Assembly (NCBI GenBank): GCA_018902545.1 | Contig: JAHIQM010000015.1 | Coordinates: 248,001 to 312,000 of the forward strand | DNA from: Pseudomonadota bacterium | GTDB taxonomy: Bacteria; Desulfobacterota; Desulfovibrionia; Desulfovibrionales; Desulfomicrobiaceae | DNA: 64,000 bases | Direction of reading: 5' to 3' | Part shown: positions 2,727-13,377 of the stretch, one piece after another | Position numbering within the stretch: position 1 is the stretch's first letter | Layout: each line of letters opens with the position of its first letter | Translations under genes and position numbers: made by a program | Notes under the pieces: generated by a model | What the model saw: the letters and a program-made list of their open reading frames with translations, nothing else | Database searches by the model: none | Told to the model about the DNA's origin: nothing

Positions 2727-2978
2727 GCGGATTCTTCGGGCTAGGGTTGTCCATGGGTGCGCGGACGCATGGTTTGATCCAGGTTCAACGTGCATCATTA
2801 ACAATAAGACGTTATGAATTGCAAGCGGTTATTGGTCAGAATATATGTAAGCAATTGAAATGATGAACGATGAATGAAGTGCTGCGGTCACGACGCATGG
2901 ACTCGGGTGATCGGGGAGAGCTGCGGCATGCATGGACTGGCGAATGTTTGCACGGTTGATAAAAAAATCACAAAACGG

Positions 2979-3060
2979 TTGACAAGAAGAGCGTTGAGAA
3001 GCAAAAAGGGGGCTCTGTTTTTTTATTTGTGAAAATAAAAACAAACTATATTTAGGAGGA
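2979..3060 (+). promoter_or_regulatory. sat promoter region and ribosome-binding site
   Basis: The gap 2727-3068 holds no credible gene and is AT-rich near sat. A perfect TTGACA (2979-2984) could be a -35 box, but no good -10 lies 16-18 nt beyond it. AGGAGGA at 3054-3060 is a strong Shine-Dalgarno sequence 8 nt before the sat ATG. Confidence 0.4.
3027..3044 (+). promoter_or_regulatory. Possible Rex-like operator in sat leader
   Basis: The 18-mer reads TTGTGAAAATAAAAACAA. Its left half matches the Rex consensus TTGTGAAA exactly; the right half keeps only the terminal ACAA. Rex is known to repress sat in Desulfovibrio vulgaris, which makes the position suggestive. The degenerate right arm keeps confidence low. 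Confidence 0.3.
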
Positions 3061-3068
3061 TCCGCATT

Positions 3069-4337
3069 ATGGCTCTCGTACCCCCGCATGGTGGAAAAGG
3101 TTTGGTTTGCTGTCTGCTTCAGGGTGCCGAACTGGCTGCCGAGCAGAAAAAGGCCGCTGGTTTGAAGAAGATCGATATCAGCCCCCGCGCCAAGGGCGAC
3201 CTGATCATGATGGGCATCGGCGGCTTCAGCCCGCTGAGCGGCTTCATGACCAAGGCTGACTGGAAGTCCGTTTGCGAAAAGTTCACATTGGCCGACGGCA
3301 CCTTCTGGCCCGTGCCTGTGACCCTGGATATGGACGAAGAAGTTAAGGTTGGCGAAGAGATCGCTCTGTTCGACCCCAAGAAGGGCGTTTTCATGGCGAC
3401 CATGAAGGTCACCGAAGTTTATGAAATGACCGACGCTGACAAGAAATGGGAATGCGAGAAGGTCTACAAGGGCGAGGGCGAAGAGTCCGCTGGCGACAAG
3501 TTCTGGGAAATCGCACCCAAGGATCATCCCGGCGTAATCATGGTCATGGCTCAGAAGAAGTACAACGTAGCCGGTCCGGTCAAAGTCCTGTCCGAAGGCG
3601 ACTACCGCGACAGATTCCCCGGATGCTACATGTCCCCGGCCGAAGCTCGTGCCACCTTCGAAGAAAAGGGTTGGAGCAAGGTCGCCGCTCTGCAGCTGCG
3701 CAACCCCATGCACCGCTCCCACGAATACCTGGCCAAGATCGCTGTTGAAGTTTGCGACGGCGTGTTCATCCACTCCCTGGTCGGCAACCTGAAGCCCGGC
3801 GACATCCCGGCCGAAGTGCGCATCAAGTGCATCGACATGCTCATTGATAAGTACTTTGTGAAGGCCAACGTCGTTCAGGGCGGCTATCCCCTGGATATGC
3901 GCTATGCCGGTCCTCGCGAAGGCCTGCTGCACGCCACCTTCCGCCAGAACTACGGCGTTTCCGACATGCTGATCGGTCGTGACCACGCTGGCGTTGGTGA
4001 CTTCTACGGTCTGTTCGAAGCTCAGGAAATCTTTGACCGCGTTCCCAAGAACCTGGGCGCCGGCAAGGACCTGATCACCCAGCCCATGAAGATCGACTGG
4101 ACCTTCTACTGCTACAAGTGCGACGGTATGGCTTCTCTGCGCACCTGCCCGCATGGTAAGGACGACCGCGTTGTCCTGTCCGGCACCAAGCTGCGCAAGG
4201 CTCTGTCCGAAGGCGCTGAAGTTGTTGACCACTTCGGTCGCGACGAAGTCCTCGTCATCCTGCGCGAATACTACTCCACTCTGACCGAGAAGGTCGAAGT
4301 GAAGATGCAGGGTGCCGCTTCCGGCGCTAACATGTAG
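3069..4337 (+). CDS. sat: Sulfate adenylyltransferase (ATP sulfurylase), dissimilatory
   Basis: Activates sulfate with ATP to adenosine-5'-phosphosulfate (APS) and pyrophosphate, the first step of dissimilatory sulfate reduction in the cytoplasm. The 422 residues contain the nucleotide-binding motif [10 protein letters not shown] at 209-218 (H215, H218) and the GRDHAG motif near residue 307. A zinc-type site is visible at C348, C351, C360 and H362 ([15 protein letters not shown]), as in other homo-oligomeric ATP sulfurylases. Length is normal for the bacterial/archaeal form without an APS kinase domain. The start is fixed by the AGGAGGA 8 nt upstream. aprBA follows after a hairpin and its own promoter-like sequence, so the two are probably co-regulated rather than strictly one transcript. 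Confidence 0.97.
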
Positions 4338-4352
4338 TTTTGTTTTCAACCG

Positions 4353-4384
4353 GGAGGGCGGGCTTTTTCCGCCCACCCTCCTCT
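4353..4384 (+). terminator. Hairpin after sat, likely terminator or attenuator
   Basis: GGAGGG-C-GGGC (4353-4363) pairs with GCCC-A-CCCTCC (4371-4381) with one internal mismatch. The U-tract is poor (TCTTC), so read-through to aprBA is possible. Confidence 0.5.
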
Positions 4385-4435
4385 TCAGGCTTTGCGACAA
4401 TGGTCGGATGAAGCCTGCGATTGTCAATATGCGGC

Positions 4436-4464
4436 TTGACACAACAAAAACGCTTTGATAAAAG
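4436..4464 (+). promoter_or_regulatory. Candidate sigma-70 promoter for aprBA
   Basis: A perfect TTGACA (4436-4441) is followed after 17 nt by TAAAAG (4459-4464), a 4/6 match to the -10 consensus. It lies 86 nt upstream of the aprB ATG in AT-rich DNA. Confidence 0.45.
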
Positions 4465-4549
4465 ATTCACAAGCAAAAAGCTTGGGTAATTTTTTTGTTT
4501 GTTTCGGGCCTATGGCTAAGTTGTTTTAAACTCTTTATTCGGAGGAATT

Positions 4550-5038
4550 ATGCCAACCTTTGTTGATCCAGCAAAGTGTGATGGATGCAAGGGCGGTGAA
4601 AAGACTGCCTGTATGTACATCTGTCCTAACGACCTGATGATCCTGGACCCTGTAGAGATGAAGGCTTACAACCAGGAGCCGTCTGCTTGCTGGGAATGTT
4701 ACTCCTGCATCAAGATCTGCCCCCAAGGCGCCGTAACCGCTCGCCCCTACGCTGACTTCGCTCCCATGGGCGGCGTATGCATCCCGCTGCGCGGCGCGGA
4801 AGACATCATGTGGACCGTTCAGTTCCGCAATGGCGATGTAAAGCGCTTCAAGTTCCCCATCCGCACCACAGTGGAAGGTTCCATCAAGCCCTTCGAAGGC
4901 AAGCCCGAGGCCGGGAACCTGGAAGATGAGCTTCTGTTCACCGAGACCACCTTGACCATCCCCAAGGAAGCCCTCGGCAAGAAGATTGAAGTCGGTGAAG
5001 CAGACCTGAAGGTCACCTTCAAGTCGGCCGTCGCCTAA
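4550..5038 (+). CDS. aprB: Adenylylsulfate reductase beta subunit (ferredoxin-like)
   Basis: Electron-entry subunit of the AprBA heterodimer; it passes electrons through two [4Fe-4S] clusters to the FAD in AprA. The 162-residue protein shows the two cluster sets: C10, C13, C21, C25 (with the insertion typical of this family between the second and third cysteines) and C47, C50, C53, C57. W48, which sits between cluster and flavin in the characterised enzymes, is present. The C-terminal ~90 residues form the tail that wraps around AprA. A strong GGAGG precedes the ATG. It forms an operon with aprA, 38 nt downstream, and the quinone-linked donor complex Qmo is encoded next. Confidence 0.97.
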   Translation: MPTFVDPAKCDGCKGGEKTACMYICPNDLMILDPVEMKAYNQEPSACWECYSCIKICPQGAVTARPYADFAPMGGVCIPLRGAEDIMWTVQFRNGDVKRFKFPIRTTVEGSIKPFEGKPEAGNLEDELLFTETTLTIPKEALGKKIEVGEADLKVTFKSAVA

Positions 5039-5076
5039 TTCGGCGCTTTAAACGAAAGAAATTTCAGGAGGAACTT

Positions 5077-7068
5077 ATGCCTCAGATTCCTGTTAAAGAC
5101 GTGATCAAGGGTCTTGCCTGCGCAGAGCCCGAACTCGTTGAGATTGATACCGACCTTCTTATGGTCGGTGGTGGTATGGGTAACTGTGGAACTGCTTTTG
5201 AAGCAGTTCGTTGGGCCGACAAATATGGCGCCGACATCAAAATGCTCATGGTTGACAAGGCTGCAGTCGATCGCGGCGGCGCGGTTGCTCAGGGTCTTTC
5301 CGCCATCAACACCTATATTGGCGAAAATGATGTCGACGACTATGTCCGCATGGTCCGCACCGACCTCATGGGTATTGTTCGCGAAGACTTGATCTACGAC
5401 CTTGGCCGCCACGTGGATGATTCCGTTCATCTGTTCGAAGAGTGGGGCCTGCCTTGCTGGATCAAGAAAGACGGCAAAAACCTGGACGGAGCTCAGGCTC
5501 ACAAAGAAGGTCTGTCTCTGCGCAAGGGCGATGCCCCCGTTCGTTCCGGACGTTGGCAGATCATGATCAACGGTGAGTCCTACAAGGTCATCGTTGCTGA
5601 AGCCGCCAAGAACGCCCTGGGTTCCGACCGTTACTTGGAGCGCATCTTCATCGTTAAGCTGCTGCTTGATGCCAAGGTTCCGAACCATATCGCCGGCGCT
5701 GTAGGTTTCTCGGTTCGTGAAAACAAAGTGTACGTCATCAAGGCCAAGACCATGTCCGTGGCTTGTGGTGGCGCTGTAAACGTATACCGCCCGCGCTCCA
5801 CTGGTGAAGGCCTTGGCCGCGCTTGGTATCCCGTATGGAACGCCGGCTCCACCTACACCATGTGTGCTCAGGTTGGCGCTGAAATGACCATGATGGAAAA
5901 CCGCTTCGTACCCGCCCGTTTCAAAGACGGCTACGGTCCGGTCGGCGCATGGTTCCTGCTCTTCAAGGCCAAAGCCACTAACGCCAAGGGTGAAGACTAC
6001 TGTGTCACCAACCGCGCCATGCTGAAGCCCTACGAAGATCGCGGTTACGCCAAGGGTCACGTCATTCCGACCTGTCTGCGCAACCACATGATGCTGCGTG
6101 AAATGCGCGAAGGTCGCGGTCCCATCTACATGGACACCGCTACCGCCCTGCAGACCACCTTCAAGGACCTGTCCAAGGCCGAGCAGAAGCATCTTGAGTC
6201 CGAAGCTTGGGAAGACTTCCTTGACATGTGCGTTGGCCAGGCCAACCTGTGGGCCGCCATGAACATCAAGCCCGAAGAACGCGGCTCCGAGATCATGCCC
6301 ACCGAACCTTACCTCCTCGGTTCCCACTCCGGTTGCTGCGGCATCTGGGTTTCCGGTCCGAACGAGCCCTGGGTTCCCGAAGAATACAAGGTCAAGGCTG
6401 CAAACGGCAAGGTCTACAACCGCATGACCACCGTCAACGGACTGTGGACCTGCGCTGATGGCGTTGGCGCTTCCGGACACAAGTTTTCTTCCGGTTCCCA
6501 CGCTGAAGGCCGAATTGTCGGCAAACAGATGGTTCGCTACATTTTGGATCACAAGGATTTCACTCCTACCCTGAATGTGTCCGGTGAAGAATTGAAGAAG
6601 GAAATCTACCAGCCTTGGTATACCTTCGAGCAGTTCAAGGGTGCTTCCACTGACCCGGTTGTAAACCCGAACTACATCAGCCCCAATAACTTCATGATGC
6701 GCCTCATCAAGTGCACCGATGAATACGGCGGCGGTTGCGCTACCCTGTATACCACTTCCGACAGACTGCTCGACACCGGCTTTGCCCTGCTCGACATGCT
6801 GGAAGAAGATTCCAAGAAGCTGGCCGCCCGCGACCTGCACGAACTGCTCCGCTGCTGGGAACAGTACCACAGACTGTGGACCGTTCGTCTGCACATGCAG
6901 CACATTCGTTTCCGTCAGGAAAGCCGTTACCCCGGTTTCTACTATCGTGCCGACTTCATGGGTCTGGACGACGACAAGTGGAAGTGCTTCGTTAACTCCA
7001 AGTACGATCCGGCTACTGGTGTAACCGAGATCTTCAAGAAACATTACTACCAGATCATCCCTGTCTAG
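5077..7068 (+). CDS. aprA: Adenylylsulfate reductase alpha subunit (FAD)
   Basis: Catalytic subunit of dissimilatory APS reductase: reduces APS to sulfite and AMP in the cytoplasm. The 663 residues belong to the fumarate reductase/succinate dehydrogenase flavoprotein superfamily. The FAD-binding Rossmann motif is near the N terminus (LLMVGGGMGNCGTAFEAVRW, about residues 28-47), and the long capping and helical domains are present. Length matches the family. AGGAGG lies just before the ATG, and aprB is immediately upstream. A strong terminator follows at 7079-7112, so aprBA ends as its own transcript before qmo. Confidence 0.97.
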   Translation: MPQIPVKDVIKGLACAEPELVEIDTDLLMVGGGMGNCGTAFEAVRWADKYGADIKMLMVDKAAVDRGGAVAQGLSAINTYIGENDVDDYVRMVRTDLMGIVREDLIYDLGRHVDDSVHLFEEWGLPCWIKKDGKNLDGAQAHKEGLSLRKGDAPVRSGRWQIMINGESYKVIVAEAAKNALGSDRYLERIFIVKLLLDAKVPNHIAGAVGFSVRENKVYVIKAKTMSVACGGAVNVYRPRSTGEGLGRAWYPVWNAGSTYTMCAQVGAEMTMMENRFVPARFKDGYGPVGAWFLLFKAKATNAKGEDYCVTNRAMLKPYEDRGYAKGHVIPTCLRNHMMLREMREGRGPIYMDTATALQTTFKDLSKAEQKHLESEAWEDFLDMCVGQANLWAAMNIKPEERGSEIMPTEPYLLGSHSGCCGIWVSGPNEPWVPEEYKVKAANGKVYNRMTTVNGLWTCADGVGASGHKFSSGSHAEGRIVGKQMVRYILDHKDFTPTLNVSGEELKKEIYQPWYTFEQFKGASTDPVVNPNYISPNNFMMRLIKCTDEYGGGCATLYTTSDRLLDTGFALLDMLEEDSKKLAARDLHELLRCWEQYHRLWTVRLHMQHIRFRQESRYPGFYYRADFMGLDDDKWKCFVNSKYDPATGVTEIFKKHYYQIIPV

Positions 7069-7078
7069 TTTATGGGCC

Positions 7079-7112
7079 AAAAGGCTGCGGGGCCATCCCG
7101 CAGCCTTTTTTC
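7079..7112 (+). terminator. Rho-independent terminator after aprA
   Basis: A perfect 11-bp GC-rich stem (7081-7091 with 7097-7107) with a 5-nt loop is followed by a T-rich tract. It separates aprBA from qmoABCD. Confidence 0.9.
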
Positions 7113-7122
7113 TCTATCAGGA

Positions 7123-7188
7123 AATAGAATGGTCTATGCATGATCTGTAACCTCTGGTAGTTATAGATTATGCTTGGGCCATTCTATT
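7123..7188 (+). promoter_or_regulatory. 66-nt imperfect palindrome in the qmoA leader
   Basis: Positions 7123-7151 pair with 7160-7188 around an 8-nt loop. Of 29 positions, 24 are Watson-Crick, 4 are G-T (G.U in RNA; at 7133, 7135, 7142 and 7147) and only 7137/7174 mismatches. The outer 10 bp (AATAGAATGG / CCATTCTATT) are perfect. A short T-run (7191-7195) follows, and the qmoA ATG lies 42 nt beyond the stem. It could be an attenuator, an mRNA-stability element or a dispersed palindromic repeat. Confidence 0.6.
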
Positions 7189-7230
7189 CATTTTTATGGC
7201 CTTCAACATAAGTGTTCTGGGAGGAATCGA

Positions 7231-8472
7231 ATGGCTAGCAACAGCATACTTGTCATAGGTGGTGGCTTCGCCGGGCTCACCGCCGCCCTTGAGGCCGCTG
7301 AGATCGGCCATGAGGTCTTCATTATCGAGAAGACCCCTTTTCTGGGTGGACGTGTTATGCAGCTGAACAAATATTTTCCTAAGCTGTGTCCACCTTCGTG
7401 CGGTTTGGAAATTCAGTATCAGCGGATCAAGAACAACCCCAATGTTAAGTTTTTCACCCTGGCCGAAGTGACCAAGGTTGAGGGGTCCGTTGGCAATTAC
7501 GAGGTTACGGTTCGGATCAAACCGCGCTACGCTGGTCCGAGCAGCCCTGATCTTTCTGATCTGTGTGCTGAGCTTTCCACGGAAGTCGTTAACGACTTCG
7601 AATTCGGTTTGTCGAACCGCAAGCCTGTTTACATGGATGCGCCATTCGCCTTTCCGCAGCGTTACGTCGTGGACAAGGCCAGCCTGAGCGAAGCGGACAA
7701 GGGTAAAGTCCAGAAGTGCGACTATCTGGATCTGACCGAGGAAGAGAAAACCATCACCTTGAGCGTTGGGTCCATCGTCATCGCCACGGGCTGGAAACCT
7801 TACGACGTTACGAACCTGTCCAATCTTGGCGCAGGCGCGGTCAAGAACTGCATCTCCAACATGCAGATGGAACGTCTCGCATCACCGTATGGTCCGACCA
7901 GCGGCGCTATCCTGCGTCCGTCCGATGGTCGCGCCCCGAAAAAGGTCGCCTTCGTTCAGTGTGCCGGTTCCCGAGATGAGAATCATCTGCATTACTGCTC
8001 GTATATCTGCTGCATGGCTTCCCTGAAGCAGGCGCAGTATGTTCGCGAACAGTATCCGGACGCCGAAGTGACCATTTATTACATAGACCTGCGGACCCCT
8101 GGCCGCTATGACAACTTCGCCAAGAAGATTCTGGCGGACGAGAAAATTTTTGCCGTAAAGGGCAAAGTCGCAGCGGTTGAGCAGGACAAGGCAGGCGATG
8201 ACGTGTGGGTCACCGTGGAAGATGCGGTGTCGTGCGCCAAGTCTGTCGAACGTTTCGATCTCGTGGTTTTGGCCACAGGAATGCAGCCCAGCCTGGCCGG
8301 CGCTTCCCTGCCTATCGATGTCCCGGTTGATGCCGAAGGGTTCATCGTTGGCGGAGAAGAAAAAGGTATTTTTGCCGCGGGCTGTGCCAAACAACCTCTG
8401 GACGTGATGAAGTCGGCCCAGTCTGCCACCGGGGCAGCGATGAAAGCGATCCAGACGGTGAGAGGGAGGTAG
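7231..8472 (+). CDS. qmoA: Quinone-interacting membrane-bound oxidoreductase subunit QmoA
   Basis: HdrA-like flavoprotein of the Qmo complex, which links the menaquinone pool to APS reductase. The 413-residue product starts at the ATG at 7231 behind GGGAGG; an in-frame ATG at 7174 falls inside the palindromic leader and is unlikely. A dinucleotide-binding motif is at the N terminus (ILVIGGGFAGLTAALEAAE). A cysteine pair follows (LCPPSCGLEIQ, about residues 51-61), and further cysteines lie in VQCAGSRDE and YCSYICCMASLKQ, typical of the HdrA flavin domain. It is soluble and cytoplasmic, probably docked to QmoB and QmoC. qmoB starts 3 nt after the stop. Confidence 0.95.
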   Translation: MASNSILVIGGGFAGLTAALEAAEIGHEVFIIEKTPFLGGRVMQLNKYFPKLCPPSCGLEIQYQRIKNNPNVKFFTLAEVTKVEGSVGNYEVTVRIKPRYAGPSSPDLSDLCAELSTEVVNDFEFGLSNRKPVYMDAPFAFPQRYVVDKASLSEADKGKVQKCDYLDLTEEEKTITLSVGSIVIATGWKPYDVTNLSNLGAGAVKNCISNMQMERLASPYGPTSGAILRPSDGRAPKKVAFVQCAGSRDENHLHYCSYICCMASLKQAQYVREQYPDAEVTIYYIDLRTPGRYDNFAKKILADEKIFAVKGKVAAVEQDKAGDDVWVTVEDAVSCAKSVERFDLVVLATGMQPSLAGASLPIDVPVDAEGFIVGGEEKGIFAAGCAKQPLDVMKSAQSATGAAMKAIQTVRGR

Positions 8473-8475
8473 GTC

Positions 8476-10767
8476 ATGGCCGACAAGATTGGTGTATATT
8501 TTGATGAAGCGAGCCTTGGCGGGATGCTCGACATCCAGAAACTGTGCGATGGCGTGCAGAAAAAATGGAAAGATAGCTGCCCCGTGATCAAGGTGCATCC
8601 ACGACTGGCGAGTGGCGAAGGCCGGGCTCTGATTCAGGCGGATATCGATGCAGGCCTGATCAATGCTGTTTGCGTCTGCGGATCCTCGCCGCGTGTCGAT
8701 TGGGAATTCTACAAATTCGGTCAGAACATCCTGGTTGACCGCGTCAACCTGCGTGAACTTTGCGTACTGTGCTACAACGATCCCAGCGGGGAGAAGGTCG
8801 TGCCGGGCAATTCGCCGGAACTGCTCTTCAAGATGGCCAATGACTACGTCAACATGGGCGTGATCAAACTCCAGAAAGCCACTGTGCCGGACGGTGACGT
8901 CCTTGAAGTAGTCAACCGTGTCCTGGTCATCGGCGGTGGCTGGGCAGGCATGAGCGCCGCCCTCGACGTGGCTGCTGTGGGCTACGATGTCACCTTGGTC
9001 GAAAAGAAGGAAATGCTCGGTGGTGCCGCCGCCGGGATGTACAAGACCGTTCCTTTCGTCTTTCCTTACGACGCGGCTCATGCCACGGGCGTGGAAAAGA
9101 AGATCGCCGAGGTCCAGGCTTCCGAGAAAATCGAAGTACTTCTGGAAAGTGAAGTCGCCAGCATCGCCGGTGCCCCCGGCAATTACGTGGTGACTGTAAA
9201 GGTGGGCAAGGAAGAGCGCGTCATGGGCATCGGCTCCGTGGTTATCGCCACCGGATGGGTGCCGCAGGACACCGCGTACCTGAAGCCCCTGGGTTACGGG
9301 AAGCTCAAGAACGTGGTCACGTCCCGTGAATTCGAAGCCATGGCCAAAGCCGGTTCCATCGTACGCAAGAGCGACGGCAACAAGCCCACCAAGGTCATGT
9401 TCCTGCTCGGGTTTGGTGACAAACTCGCGCCTTTTGAGGTCAAGGAACAGGAAGCTCGCGCCGCCGCCCTGGCTGCCGCTGAGGTCAAAGAGGCTGACGA
9501 CACGCCCAAGACCAACTTCATCAAGCAGGACACCTACAAACACCTGGCCTACAGCTCCGAGCTGACATCGCTGACAGCCCTGAAGCAGGCCAACTATGTT
9601 CGCGAATTCATTCCCGGCGGCGTGGCCATGGTGGTCTACGAGCACATGATGGTCCCCGGCATGAATGAGCTGTACTACAAAGCCGCGCAGAACGATCCCA
9701 GCGTCATGATGACCAAGGGCGTGATCAGTGAAGTGCGCGACGGTGGCGATGGCGACATTGTCGTAGTCCTGGAGGACACTTTCCTCGGTGCCAAGATCGA
9801 GATCGAAGTGGACATGCTCGTGCTGCCCACGGCCATGGTGCCCACTACGGCCCTCGACCCGATCCTCAAGCTCACATACCGGCAGGGACCGGCCATGCCC
9901 GATCTGGATCAGTTTAACGGGTATGCCGACTCCAACTACATCTGCTTCCCCTATGAAACCCGCCGCACCGGCATCTACGCCGCCGGGACGGTGCGTCAGC
10001 CCATGACCATGGCCACGGCCGAAGTCGACGCGGCCGGCGCAGCCCTGAAAGCGGTGCAGTGCCTGGAATCCGCGAACCGGGGCATGTCCGTTCATCCTCG
10101 TTCGGGCGATCTGTCCTTCCCGAAGTTCAATCTGATACGCTGCACCCAGTGTAAGCGCTGCACGGAAGAATGTCCTTTCGGTGCCCTGGACGAGGACGAG
10201 AAGGGCAATCCGATGCCCAACTCCTCACGTTGTCGCCGTTGCGGAACGTGCATGGGTGCCTGCCCGGAACGCGTCATCTTCTTCGACAACTACAACGTCG
10301 ATCAGATTGGATCCATGATCAAGCAGGTCGAAGTGCCCGATGATATGGAAGTGGGCGGTCCGCGCATGCTCATTCTCGCTTGCGAGAACGATGCCTATCC
10401 GGCTCTCGACATGGCTGCCCTGCGCGGCAAGAAGTGGAGTCCCTACGTACGCATCGTCCCGGTGCGTTGCCTTGGTTCGGTCAACACCATCTGGATTGCC
10501 GACGCCATGTCCAAGGGTACGGACGGATGTCTGCTCCTGGGCTGCAAATACGGTGAGGATTATCAGTGCCACTTTGTCAAAGGGTCGGAATTGTGTAATC
10601 GCCGCATGGACAACATCGGTGAAACATTGGGCAAACTTGGCATTGAAGCCGAACGGGTTCAGCAGATGCAGGTGGCCATTGACGAATACGACAAGGTGCC
10701 CGCGATGATCGATGAGTTTGTTGATGCAATCACCAAGCTCGGTCCCAACCCGTTCAAGGGATACTAG
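8476..10767 (+). CDS. qmoB: Quinone-interacting membrane-bound oxidoreductase subunit QmoB
   Basis: Large HdrA-like subunit of Qmo (763 residues) carrying FAD, iron-sulfur clusters and an MvhD-like tail. A ~130-residue N-terminal region with several cysteines (VCVCGSSPR, LCVLCYNDPSG) precedes the FAD motif (VLVIGGGWAGMSAALDVAAV, about 152-171). Two ferredoxin-type [4Fe-4S] motifs follow: C556/C559/C562/C566 and C586/C589/C592/C596. The last ~150 residues match the MvhD/HdrD-linked delta domain (MLILACENDAYPALDMAALR, RCLGSVN, LLLGCKYGEDYQCHF). The MvhD-like domain and HdrA kinship fit suggestions of confurcation in Qmo, which is known discussion and not shown here. Tight spacing to qmoA and qmoC indicates one operon. 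Confidence 0.95.
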   Translation: MADKIGVYFDEASLGGMLDIQKLCDGVQKKWKDSCPVIKVHPRLASGEGRALIQADIDAGLINAVCVCGSSPRVDWEFYKFGQNILVDRVNLRELCVLCYNDPSGEKVVPGNSPELLFKMANDYVNMGVIKLQKATVPDGDVLEVVNRVLVIGGGWAGMSAALDVAAVGYDVTLVEKKEMLGGAAAGMYKTVPFVFPYDAAHATGVEKKIAEVQASEKIEVLLESEVASIAGAPGNYVVTVKVGKEERVMGIGSVVIATGWVPQDTAYLKPLGYGKLKNVVTSREFEAMAKAGSIVRKSDGNKPTKVMFLLGFGDKLAPFEVKEQEARAAALAAAEVKEADDTPKTNFIKQDTYKHLAYSSELTSLTALKQANYVREFIPGGVAMVVYEHMMVPGMNELYYKAAQNDPSVMMTKGVISEVRDGGDGDIVVVLEDTFLGAKIEIEVDMLVLPTAMVPTTALDPILKLTYRQGPAMPDLDQFNGYADSNYICFPYETRRTGIYAAGTVRQPMTMATAEVDAAGAALKAVQCLESANRGMSVHPRSGDLSFPKFNLIRCTQCKRCTEECPFGALDEDEKGNPMPNSSRCRRCGTCMGACPERVIFFDNYNVDQIGSMIKQVEVPDDMEVGGPRMLILACENDAYPALDMAALRGKKWSPYVRIVPVRCLGSVNTIWIADAMSKGTDGCLLLGCKYGEDYQCHFVKGSELCNRRMDNIGETLGKLGIEAERVQQMQVAIDEYDKVPAMIDEFVDAITKLGPNPFKGY

Positions 10768-10777
10768 GAGGAGCATG

Positions 10778-12004
10778 ATGTCCAAAACAATCAAGATTGA
10801 GCCTAATCTGCAGTTCGTAAAGGAGCTGCAGGAGGTGGGCGGTGCGGATCTCAAGAAGTGCTACCAGTGTGCTACCTGCTCTGTCGCATGCCCCATGTCT
10901 CCCGCGGACAGTCCCTATCCGCGCAAAGAAATGGTCTGGGCGCAGTGGGGTCTCAAAGACAAGCTGGTCAACGACATTGATATCTGGCTGTGCCACAATT
11001 GCGGAACCTGTTCCGAGCTGTGCCCCCGAGGAGCCAAGCCCGGCGACCTGCTGGGAGCGCTGCGAAACATGACCTACCGCACGCTGGTGAAGCCCGCCAT
11101 CGTCGGCAAGTGGATGAGTTCCCCCAAGCATCTGCCTATACTGGCAGGCATCCCGATGGCGATTTTCGCCTTCATCTGGATGATCCGAGCGGCCCTGGTC
11201 GGGTCCTTCTTCCCGCTCACGGAAGACGGCAAGATCGTGTACGGCAACCTCTTCCCTGGTGACTTCACCATCGATCCCCTGTTCGGCCTGGTCGCCATTT
11301 TCGTGGCCATATGTTTTGGCCTGGGAATCAAGAACATGATCGATGGTTTCAAGGCCAACGTGCCCGAGACGTTTGTCATCGGGTACAAGAGGCCGACCCT
11401 GAAGGATGCGATCATCGCCACCATCAAGTACGATGTGCTCCAGCATTCCCGCTTCAAGAACTGTGTGGACAGCCCGGCTGATGAAGAGCGGGTCAAGGGC
11501 CACCAGATCCTGTTCTACGGATTTGTGGCCTGCGCCATCGTCACCACCGTCGTGGCCGTGGGTCACTGGGGCGGCAAGGTCATCCCGCTGCTGGCACCCA
11601 TCGGTCACACGCCCATGCCGCTGTGGCATCCGGTCAAGATCCTGGCCAACATTGGCGCAGTGCTGCTGGTGACCGGCCTGACCCTGCTGACCCGTCGTCG
11701 GTTGAATTCGGACACCAAGAAGTCCGTGTCCAACTACTACGACTGGTACCTGCTCGGCGTGATCTGGGTCGTGACTCTGACCGGCATCGGCGCCCAGATC
11801 TTCCGCCTGGCCGGTACCGCTCCTTTGGCCTTCTTCACGTATTATCTGCACCTGGTCAGCATCTTCATGCTGATTGCGTATCTGCCCTGGTCCAAGCTTG
11901 GGCACCTGGTGTACCGCACCACGGCGCTCATTTATGCACGGTATGTCGGTCGGTTGCCCATTGATGAGAAACTCATCGAAGATGATAAAATCTTTGTTAT
12001 TTAA
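10778..12004 (+). CDS. qmoC: Quinone-interacting membrane-bound oxidoreductase subunit QmoC
   Basis: Membrane subunit of Qmo, a fusion of an HdrC-like iron-sulfur domain and an HdrE/cytochrome-b-like membrane domain, where menaquinol is oxidised. Two CxxCxxCxxxC motifs lie at C28/C31/C34/C38 and C72/C75/C78/C82. From about residue 110 on there are roughly six hydrophobic spans (for example LPILAGIPMAIFAFIWMIRA and GLVAIFVAICFGLGI), with histidines near several of them suited to haem b. The start is the second of two adjacent ATGs (10775/10778); AGGAGG at 10766-10771 suits 10778 better. About 408 residues. qmoD follows 15 nt after the stop. Confidence 0.95.
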   Translation: MSKTIKIEPNLQFVKELQEVGGADLKKCYQCATCSVACPMSPADSPYPRKEMVWAQWGLKDKLVNDIDIWLCHNCGTCSELCPRGAKPGDLLGALRNMTYRTLVKPAIVGKWMSSPKHLPILAGIPMAIFAFIWMIRAALVGSFFPLTEDGKIVYGNLFPGDFTIDPLFGLVAIFVAICFGLGIKNMIDGFKANVPETFVIGYKRPTLKDAIIATIKYDVLQHSRFKNCVDSPADEERVKGHQILFYGFVACAIVTTVVAVGHWGGKVIPLLAPIGHTPMPLWHPVKILANIGAVLLVTGLTLLTRRRLNSDTKKSVSNYYDWYLLGVIWVVTLTGIGAQIFRLAGTAPLAFFTYYLHLVSIFMLIAYLPWSKLGHLVYRTTALIYARYVGRLPIDEKLIEDDKIFVI

Positions 12005-12019
12005 TTAAAGGAGGACACC

Positions 12020-12688
12020 ATGTCTGAAGCTCGCAAGATTTTTCCCATGGATACTTTTGTGGCCTACCTGAAGGGTGATGGCAACGCTTCTGTTGCCGAG
12101 ATGCTGGGCTACTTGACCCAGAAAGACCTGGATGGCGATTCTACTCCTTTCGCCGCTGCCCTGGCCAAGGCCTGGATCTATGAGCAGCACCCCGAATTGA
12201 CCAAGATGTCCAAGGGACAGATGGTCGAACTGGGCCAGTCCGTCTCCGTGGCTCCGATGCCGGTGAAGGCCAAGGCCGAAGTGGATGCAGTGTTCGCCAA
12301 GCTGGCCGACTACAAGGGTCAGATCAACGCCAAGGGCGCCAAGATCGACGAACTGACCAAGGCTTTGGCTGCCAAGGACGCCGAAATCGCCGCTCTGGCC
12401 GCCAAGGTCAAGGAATTCGAGGGCCAGAAGAAGGGTGAAGCCGAAGCCCTGTTTGTGACCACCGAAGCCCGCATTGTCGAATTCACCGGCAAGCTCGAAG
12501 CCCTCTTGAAGGAAGTCGAAGAAGTCAAGAAGACCGGTGTTGTGGTTGCTGGCGTTGCCGGTGTGGCTGCGGCCCCTGGCGCTGCTCCAGCCGCTGAAGC
12601 CGCAAGCGGACCTGCCGATGCCGGCGCCGGTTCCGACTTTGGTTTTTCCGGTGGTTCCCAGGATCCTTTTGCCGATTCCAAATGGTAG
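12020..12688 (+). CDS. qmoD: QmoD-like sulfate-reduction accessory protein
   Basis: The gene after qmoC in Desulfovibrio-type clusters encodes a conserved small protein called QmoD; this 222-residue product is in that place and is assigned mainly by position. Residues ~1-85 look globular (ARKIFPMDTFVAYLKGDGNA onward). Residues ~90-165 are a lysine/alanine/glutamate-rich coiled coil (ELTKALAAKDAEIAALAAKV). The last ~55 residues are an Ala/Gly/Pro-rich tail ending in SQDPFADSKW, probably disordered. No cofactor motif, signal peptide or membrane helix is seen. A strong AAGGAGG precedes the ATG and a terminator follows the stop. It may scaffold Qmo and AprBA; that is inference. Confidence 0.8.
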   Translation: MSEARKIFPMDTFVAYLKGDGNASVAEMLGYLTQKDLDGDSTPFAAALAKAWIYEQHPELTKMSKGQMVELGQSVSVAPMPVKAKAEVDAVFAKLADYKGQINAKGAKIDELTKALAAKDAEIAALAAKVKEFEGQKKGEAEALFVTTEARIVEFTGKLEALLKEVEEVKKTGVVVAGVAGVAAAPGAAPAAEAASGPADAGAGSDFGFSGGSQDPFADSKW

Positions 12689-12710
12689 ACCCGGTTCGCG
12701 CCATGTTCTC

Positions 12711-12742
12711 AAAGGCTCCTCCTTGCGGGGGAGCCTTTTTTT
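12711..12742 (+). terminator. Rho-independent terminator after qmoD
   Basis: AAGGCTCC (12712-12719) pairs with GGAGCCTT (12730-12737), with extra inner pairs, followed by T7. It ends the qmo operon. Confidence 0.85.
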
Positions 12743-12817
12743 GGGCTCAACCGCGCCAGGAGCACGTTGACAGGCGGAACTTCAGGAGCGCGGCGGACTG
12801 TGAGACAAGGAGGTGTG

Positions 12818-13279
12818 ATGAGATACTGGCTGATGAAGACCGAGCCGGGCTGTTTTTCCATCGACGATCTGGAGGCAGCTCCGGACCAGAGCAGTTCATG
12901 GGACGGCGTGCGCAATTATCAGGCTCGAAATTTCATGCGCGACGAGATGAGCGTGGGGGATTTGATCCTTTTCTACCACAGCGTGACAAACCCCGGAGTG
13001 GTCGGCATCGCCAGGGTGGCGCGTGAAAGCTATCCCGATAACACGGCTTGGAATCCTGAAGACAGGCATTACGATCCCCGTTCTCCTGCAGAAAAACCGC
13101 TCTGGTTCATGGTCGATGTGCAGTTCGTGGAAAAGTTCGCAAGTCCCCTTCCTCTGGGCGCCCTGCGCGGTATCAAGGGACTCGAGAAGATGGAGCTTCT
13201 AAAGAAGGGCTCACGGCTGTCCGTTATGCCGGTGTCCACGGAAGAATTTGAGATCATCCTGCGTCTGGCGAAGGAGTAG
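12818..13279 (+). CDS. EVE domain protein
   Basis: The 153-residue product starts MRYWLMKTEPGCFSIDDLEA, the standard opening of the EVE family (PUA/YTH-like fold; eukaryotic relative THYN1). It retains WDGVRNYQARNFMRDEMSVG and FYHS, which line the presumed pocket for a modified base or nucleotide. Bacterial EVE proteins are thought to bind modified nucleic-acid bases and sometimes accompany restriction systems, but none is visible here. The start is set by AAGGAGGT 5 nt upstream of the ATG at 12818. It is a single gene between two terminators. Confidence 0.9.
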   Translation: MRYWLMKTEPGCFSIDDLEAAPDQSSSWDGVRNYQARNFMRDEMSVGDLILFYHSVTNPGVVGIARVARESYPDNTAWNPEDRHYDPRSPAEKPLWFMVDVQFVEKFASPLPLGALRGIKGLEKMELLKKGSRLSVMPVSTEEFEIILRLAKE

Positions 13280-13320
13280 ACTCTCGCCGCGCAGGAACTG
13301 GCCGCGGAAAGGTTCATCAA

Positions 13321-13358
13321 ATAAAAATCCACGTTGGTTTCCCGACGTGGATTTTTAT
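13321..13358. terminator. Bidirectional terminator between EVE gene and livF
   Basis: A perfect 14-bp inverted repeat (13321-13334 with 13345-13358) with A- and T-rich outer arms lies between convergent genes and can terminate both. Confidence 0.85.
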
Positions 13359-13377
13359 TTGAGATTCACTTGAAAAA

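Follow-up and report, generated by a model that had tools for sequence, protein, structure and literature searches.

A long RNA hairpin kept between the apr and qmo genes of Desulfovibrionales probably controls qmo output

Tandem intrinsic terminators or attenuators are a known arrangement, and APS reductase with its electron donor QmoABC represents a core step of sulfate respiration. In the puf and papBA systems, intercistronic hairpins set the unequal output of one operon, as described in the accessible parts of the reports (PMC5927463, PMC11354728). In papBA, according to the accessible text, RNase E cuts upstream of a hairpin, and this 5′ hairpin protects the papA mRNA (PMC5927463). A duplex of 22 nt is given as the minimum target of RNase III in the available portion of PMC5371410. 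For the apr–qmo junction, no structure is described in the accessible parts of five papers (PMC3409199, PMC4001038, PMC4215793, PMC2864571 and PMC11109978), and none was found in the literature searched; most subscription journals lay outside that literature, and absence from print is not claimed. The same literature described no post-transcriptional control of the APS reductase/QmoABC step. Here, we report a long hairpin between apr and qmo that, judging from its sequence and conservation, probably controls qmo output.

The hairpin lies in the window, i.e., the whole stretch of 64,000 nucleotides that was analysed. The apr–qmo spacer and its flanks are laid out as follows.

5077..7068, + strand: aprA (APS reductase alpha subunit), the upstream gene; an ORF, used as the tblastn query defining apr–qmo junctions
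7079..7109, + strand: T1, the intrinsic terminator behind aprA; terminator scan, 14 pairs and then a T-run
7123..7151, + strand: 5′ arm of the hairpin, with the core GGUCU at 7131–7135; sequence, folding and alignments
7152..7159, + strand: apical loop, conserved in neither length nor sequence; alignments A1 and A2
7160..7188, + strand: 3′ arm of the hairpin, with the core GGGCC at 7176–7180; sequence, folding and alignments
7196..7207, + strand: short block AUGGCCUUCAAC in the interval between hairpin and ribosome-binding site (RBS); by eye, with no significance test
7219..7224, + strand: Shine–Dalgarno-like GGGAGG of qmoA, from the sequence; unpaired with the hairpin in the fold of 7120–7240
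7231..8472, + strand: qmoA, the downstream gene; an ORF

We take the upstream gene to be aprA, following an earlier sequence-only reading of this DNA and general knowledge of the family. That reading had reported a near-perfect palindrome, and indeed 7123–7151 pairs with 7160–7188 at 28 of 29 positions, four of them as G.U, around an 8-nt loop; the lone mismatch is a U–U at 7137/7174. As it had also stated, the hairpin ends 42 nt from the qmoA ATG (7231), with a T5 run (7191–7195) beginning 3 nt past the stem, and is distinct from the aprA terminator: the terminator scan and folding both returned T1 as a separate hairpin, with a 13-nt spacer between the two. The description of the palindrome as filling the qmoA leader was too generous, as it covers just 66 of the 162 nt between aprA and qmoA. 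Further downstream, a GGCC-like block, often [AU]GGCC..AAC, was seen by eye at the same place, between hairpin and RBS, in many genera. Pairing of such a block with either arm core is conceivable, the 3′-arm core in relatives being mostly RGGCC and sometimes RGACC. An alternative pairing of the 3′ arm with this block was considered and set aside, as by eye it seems not to track the A/G change in that arm. In some folds of the genus, the aprA-stop region pairs with the downstream block; by eye, this was not seen outside the genus.

With at most one mismatch allowed, no stem on either strand of the 64-kb window is longer than that of the hairpin (29 pairs versus 21 for the next). It lies in a stretch of 36% GC, and the GC content of the window is 60%. 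Folding of the 176-nt region 7060–7235 gave z = −7.4 and that of 7120–7240 gave z = −5.7, with 0/200 shuffles as good in either case, and in the post-terminator region an equally stable hairpin was obtained in 0/200 shuffles. Stem length alone is unremarkable, because 28 pairs were reached by 28/200 shuffles when internal loops of up to 6 nt were allowed. Likewise, the hairpin energy is not outstanding, because the window is so GC-rich that 11 other hairpin entries (both strands) equal or exceed it in stability. The genome itself contains a single DNA match to the hairpin, and the covariance model at E ≤ 1 returned one locus there, the second match being the same place on the opposite strand. 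Hence neither search found another genomic copy of the palindrome, in keeping with its original description as a qmo element, and REP, MITE and other repeat or mobile elements were ruled out, the genome having just the one copy. Elsewhere in the window, a 21-pair inverted repeat (13317–13362, both strands), with flanking ORF ends at 13279 and 13378, is probably an ordinary bidirectional terminator.

An 86-nt query matched all 16 genomes of Desulfomicrobium at 85%–100% identity (four, including the genome of the window, were identical), and all 16 copies (L001–L016) sit between aprA and qmoA. Within the genus, identity was 0.93–0.94 in the arms and 0.745 in the loop; third codon positions in the adjoining 600 nt showed 0.75 in aprA and 0.61 in qmoA. 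The remaining aprA–qmoA spacer was also conserved (0.90–0.95), and the constraint therefore extends beyond the hairpin alone.

At the apr–qmo junctions of most of the genera read, the element follows the consensus aaA[UC]GGUCURAgCC...loop...GGgYUURGRCC[AG]UUUU and usually lies 34–62 nt from qmoA (75–181 nt in some lineages). Rows were picked with a pattern that fixed GG[CT]C[TC] and [AG]G[GA]CC[AG] and required at least 10 of 14 lower-stem pairs, so row selection itself accounts for the invariance of these letters and for some of the pairing in columns 10–23, whereas columns 24–29 and 6–9 lie outside it. Six false groups (L079, L086, L088, L102, L152 and L154) were dropped from the 78 pattern groups, and 54 of the remaining 72 elements form alignment A1; the 18 left out comprise 10 of Solidesulfovibrio type, six near-duplicates and two with long loops (L121 and L163). 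Alignment A2 contains 33 rows, one per genus, seven of which (L065, L073, L075, L076, L077, L083 and L091) are from named records with the genus matched indirectly. A1 folds to 23 pairs, 17 of them changed on both sides. Over its 24-pair helix, 93.4% of cells were paired, compared with 80.5% in shuffles, and 18 pairs had double changes, compared with 13.7. Double-changed cells numbered 182, as against 58 in the shuffles, which ignore the relatedness of the rows, and 32–50 with the partner slid, a control that allows for relatedness in part. A2 behaved similarly, with 92.8% of cells paired, double changes in 19 of 24 pairs (10.8 in shuffles, 8–13 when slid) and 105 double-changed cells (32.5 and 17–33, respectively). 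At pair 26–51 of A2, for example, UA occurred 13 times, AU seven, CG seven, GC once and other combinations five times. The upper stem and the A/U base, both unselected when rows were picked, covary too. The compensatory changes that the sequence-only reading had proposed to look for in relatives are thus present, exceeding both the shuffled and the slid controls in both alignments. That reading understated the scope: the hairpin is an element of the order Desulfovibrionales, not of one species.

On the sense strand of the 54 rows, G.U filled 229 cells and A.C 16. Sense wobbles are thus tolerated and antisense wobbles hardly so, and the selected molecule is therefore the sense RNA. Consistent with the initial reading of an RNA structure, and not with a palindrome at the DNA level, the window scored 70.5 bits with the model on the sense strand and 37.4 on the other, with folding energies of −46.1 and −31.2 kcal/mol for sense and antisense, respectively.

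Of the 22 genomes in the window's own family, 21 gave a strong locus with the covariance model. The exception, G017 (77% complete), gave E 0.04 at the locus, and its QmoA was represented by a fragment alone among the matches listed. The best of the weaker second matches in family genomes had E-values of 4.8e-6 (G008:C58) and 7.8e-5 (G016:C10). Across the order, 158 of 297 genomes matched at E ≤ 0.01; at E < 1e-8 there were 147, one of them false, which leaves about 146, spread over 35 of the 55 genera. These E-values are rough, and matches near 1e-9 can be false. The match removed (G149, L211, E 4.3e-9) was rejected as an element since it resembles an ordinary terminator. Matches to QmoA itself at E ≤ 1e-120 were present in 239 of the 297 genomes (45 of 55 genera). 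Position was examined for 107 of the 143 strongest matches, and all 107 were just upstream of qmoA. Among these best 143, the 87 matches with QmoA in view all lay upstream of qmoA on the same strand (the first aligned qmoA codon comes a median of 36 nt after the end of the model, with 20–60 nt in 76 of 87), and the 20 further matches fetched were all between aprA and qmoA. The phylum search, which, like all searches over 40 genomes, applied stricter filters that lose weak matches, yielded matches at E ≤ 0.001 in five genomes out of 395; three belong to this order, and the other two (G636 and G434) lie outside it and matched weakly. The fetched flanks of these two contained no aprA or qmoA match; the same held for the flanks of the weak matches in G149, G042, G093, G284 (g12), G157 (g29), G099 (g21), G265 (g8), G048 (g16) and G028 (g11). 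Other weak model matches were in genomes G132, G162, G165, G203 and G216. Within the genomes sampled, the element is tied to the apr–qmo junction in this order. Desulfovibrionales-type apr–qmo junctions were also seen in contigs titled Candidatus Omnitrophota and Pseudomonadota (L057, L053), titles that are possibly erroneous or out of date.

In the typical junction, aprA is followed by two hairpins. The first is terminator-like and usually has 11–18 pairs (up to 25 with flanking pairs); the second is the element, which in element-bearing junctions has a stem of at least 21 pairs (internal loops of up to 6 nt allowed) and a variable loop. In genus g12 (seven junctions fetched, L148–L154), which we guess is probably Desulfovibrio in the strict sense, and in others, the terminator-like first hairpin is kept and the element is absent. 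Given that these lineages keep aprA–qmoA without it, the element is dispensable there. Several junctions fit the loose pattern yet were excluded from the element-bearing set (L079, L082, L087, L096, L101, L151, L152 and L154). One junction without the consensus, L170, has a 26-bp hairpin of unrelated sequence where the element would be, which 0/200 shuffles equalled in stability. Weak non-consensus hairpins were equalled by 6 (L059), 13 (L127), 16 (L100), 19 (L063), 21 (L158) and 22 (L057) of 200 shuffles; L057 and L059 look like diverged copies by eye. By energy, nothing notable was found in L148 (25/200), L149 (101/200), L103 (121/200), L157 (164/200) or L084 (154/200). For comparison, the element-bearing L001 and L130 were each equalled by 0/200 shuffles and L192 by 4/200; in L193, the predicted second hairpin extends beyond the element. 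Solidesulfovibrio-type junctions (g17 and g21) have a hairpin that shares the base pairs of the element and is lengthened by an inner extension; the model missed it. In the g8 junctions L117, L118, L119, L120, L171 and L172, the interval between element and qmoA is longer by approximately 130 nt, which contain further hairpins: L120, L171 and L172 have 25–34 bp at −45 to −50 kcal/mol, and L117–L119 have 15–17 bp at −20 to −26 kcal/mol. A promoter or a second element could be located there. In L210 (genus g15), a Watson–Crick core variant (GUGGUCUCAG...CUGAGACCAU) replaces the usual U.G wobble.

The promoter scan found no promoter-like site in the window region. In the 78 consensus-bearing junctions with spacers of up to 200 nt, the best promoter-like pair per junction was matched by 25.6/50 shuffles on average, and 71 junctions had no such pair beyond shuffles. 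The seven exceptions, six of Solidesulfovibrio type and L198, had a pair reached by at most 2/50 shuffles and may have their own qmo promoter. In the six (L066–L068, L070, L106 and L107), TTGACG/TTGACC and TATCCT/TATCGT, 17–18 nt apart, were observed within the longer hairpin. In family f2 (L190–L193), the terminator U-run touches the 5′ arm of the element, and qmoA follows about 38 nt after the element; this arrangement offers scant space for an ordinary promoter beyond the hairpins and favours read-through. The lack of a clear promoter in the aprA–qmoA gap of most genera points in the same direction, suggesting that qmo is probably transcribed, as a rule, by read-through from apr.

Our best explanation for what was established here, namely the structure, its sense-strand nature, its conservation through changes on both sides and its placement between aprA and qmoA, is a double-stranded processing or stability element that would set the apr:qmo ratio, a mechanism that we put forward tentatively. 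In such a mechanism, the hairpin would be a cis-acting intercistronic RNA of one aprBA–qmoABC transcription unit. RNA polymerase would partly pass the aprA terminator, and the read-through RNA would fold into an almost unbroken helix of 21–30 bp just upstream of the qmoA RBS. This helix may act mainly as double-stranded RNA, either as an RNase III cut site or as a shield for a cut end, so that the qmo messenger would acquire a 5′ end of its own and a lifetime split from that of the apr messenger. Messengers split in this way could set the ratio of APS reductase to QmoABC. The reading is favoured because it fits the length of the stem, its place and the puf and papBA precedents. An RNase III target is expected to have about 22 bp or more; the stem in the window has 28 pairs and a single mismatch, those of element-bearing junctions in relatives have at least 21, a few of them being at the limit, and the window's genome encodes RNase III. 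The unrelated hairpin at the same place in L170 was also counted in its favour. Against it, the stem-base sequence GGUCU/GRCC is conserved, partly through row picking, beyond what a generic RNase III substrate needs; the element is dispensable in g12 and others; hairpins of unrelated sequence other than that of L170 are weak by comparison with shuffles; promoter-like pairs occur in 7 of 78 junctions; and the U residues after the stem would suit a terminator too.

The main rival, which we regard as somewhat unlikely, is that the hairpin serves as another terminator or attenuator, weaker than the one behind aprA and arranged in tandem with it. Transcription of qmo would then be lowered by a further fixed or regulated factor, with the conserved basal U.G keeping the terminator leaky. 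The order of A-tract, hairpin and U-tract is terminator-like, and at least five U in the 8 nt after GGCC[AG] are present in 55 of the 72 distinct elements, yet the terminator scan of the window called the aprA hairpin alone and not 7123–7188. Moreover, the U-run is broken in Desulfomicrobiaceae rows (UUCUAUUC) while the pairing extends, and L138 has no U-run. In the two pairs below U10–A67, the U side is almost fixed and the A side drifts to G (pair 9–68: AU 43, GU 9; pair 8–69: AU 44, GU 6), which counts in favour of this rival; a 24-bp covarying stem, however, is unnecessary for a terminator, and an alternative antiterminator pairing was not seen by eye.

It is quite unlikely that the conserved stem base is the site of a regulatory protein or trans-RNA controlling qmo translation or stability, for instance in response to redox state or sulfate. 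Pairs 11–66, 12–65 and 14–63 are invariant in the 54 rows, and the U13.G64 wobble is kept in 46 of 54 and 27 of 33 rows, some of these letters being fixed by the row pattern. The covariance model found no second locus in the window's genome, a specificity that would suit such a site but that also means no second target there, and no candidate protein emerged; in addition, the RBS lies outside the hairpin and the loop is variable. More doubtful still is a Desulfovibrionales-specific switch in the qmo leader, in which a ligand, protein or small molecule, that reports on sulfate, APS or redox state would bind the GGUCU/GRCC base. If this were true, the amount of QmoABC made per APS reductase would be set post-transcriptionally, a control point in dissimilatory sulfate reduction. 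A riboswitch would show a conserved aptamer, multi-helix or rich in loops, together with an expression platform; the consensus instead is a single helix with a variable loop, a competing structure having been sought by eye alone.

A separate small RNA from the spacer, derived from the 3′ UTR or from its own promoter and with the hairpin as its body, appears very unlikely. The compact stable fold and the one strong locus per genome (21 of 22 in the family) would suit it, but 71 of 78 junctions show no promoter-like site beyond shuffles, six of the seven exceptions being of Solidesulfovibrio type, and the synteny with qmoA (107 of 107 examined) is stricter than a trans-acting RNA requires. Least credible is a DNA-level operator or cruciform: the inverted repeat is long and covariation by itself cannot tell RNA from a cruciform, but conservation is not strand-symmetric in wobble cells (229 versus 16) or model score, and a covarying, variable middle separates the conserved half-sites.

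Searches of the window against Rfam 15 returned no family at the gathering score, and a known RNA family was thereby ruled out. Within 2800–13000 at E ≤ 1, sub-threshold matches were MIR7994 over the element (30.3 bits, cut-off 100), Hrs13 over the aprA end and terminator (24.3 bits, cut-off 52) and CsrC on the other strand of the terminator (15.8 bits, cut-off 61). The hairpin is thus a candidate new RNA family of the intercistronic or leader hairpin kind, with a working covariance model. The retention of a structured RNA at the apr–qmo junction in about 35 genera suggests old, RNA-level selection on the amount of qmo relative to apr, for which the hairpin provides a small, easily mutated target for probing.

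As in tandem terminators, a canonical terminator comes first and a second hairpin, trailed by a few U, comes next, whereas the stem of the element is about twice as long as its neighbour's (28 versus 14 pairs in the window) and the U-run is broken in Desulfomicrobium. The three comparisons that follow draw on the accessible parts of the sources cited and, on the side of qmo, on sequence data. Like the RNase III target stems of bacterial mRNAs, the element is an untranslated-region duplex with a length of roughly 22 bp upwards (PMC5371410); it differs from them in the strong conservation of its stem base. As in papBA, which it resembles by description, the hairpin sits just upstream of the downstream gene and could protect a processed 5′ end (PMC5927463); unlike papBA, the qmo stem is conserved across an order. 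Finally, like the Rhodobacter pufBALMX stem-loop, it sits between two energy-metabolism genes, here probably cistrons of one transcript, the products of which are required in differing amounts (PMC5927463, PMC11354728). The qmo hairpin, however, is preceded by a full intrinsic terminator and is placed in the leader of the downstream gene.
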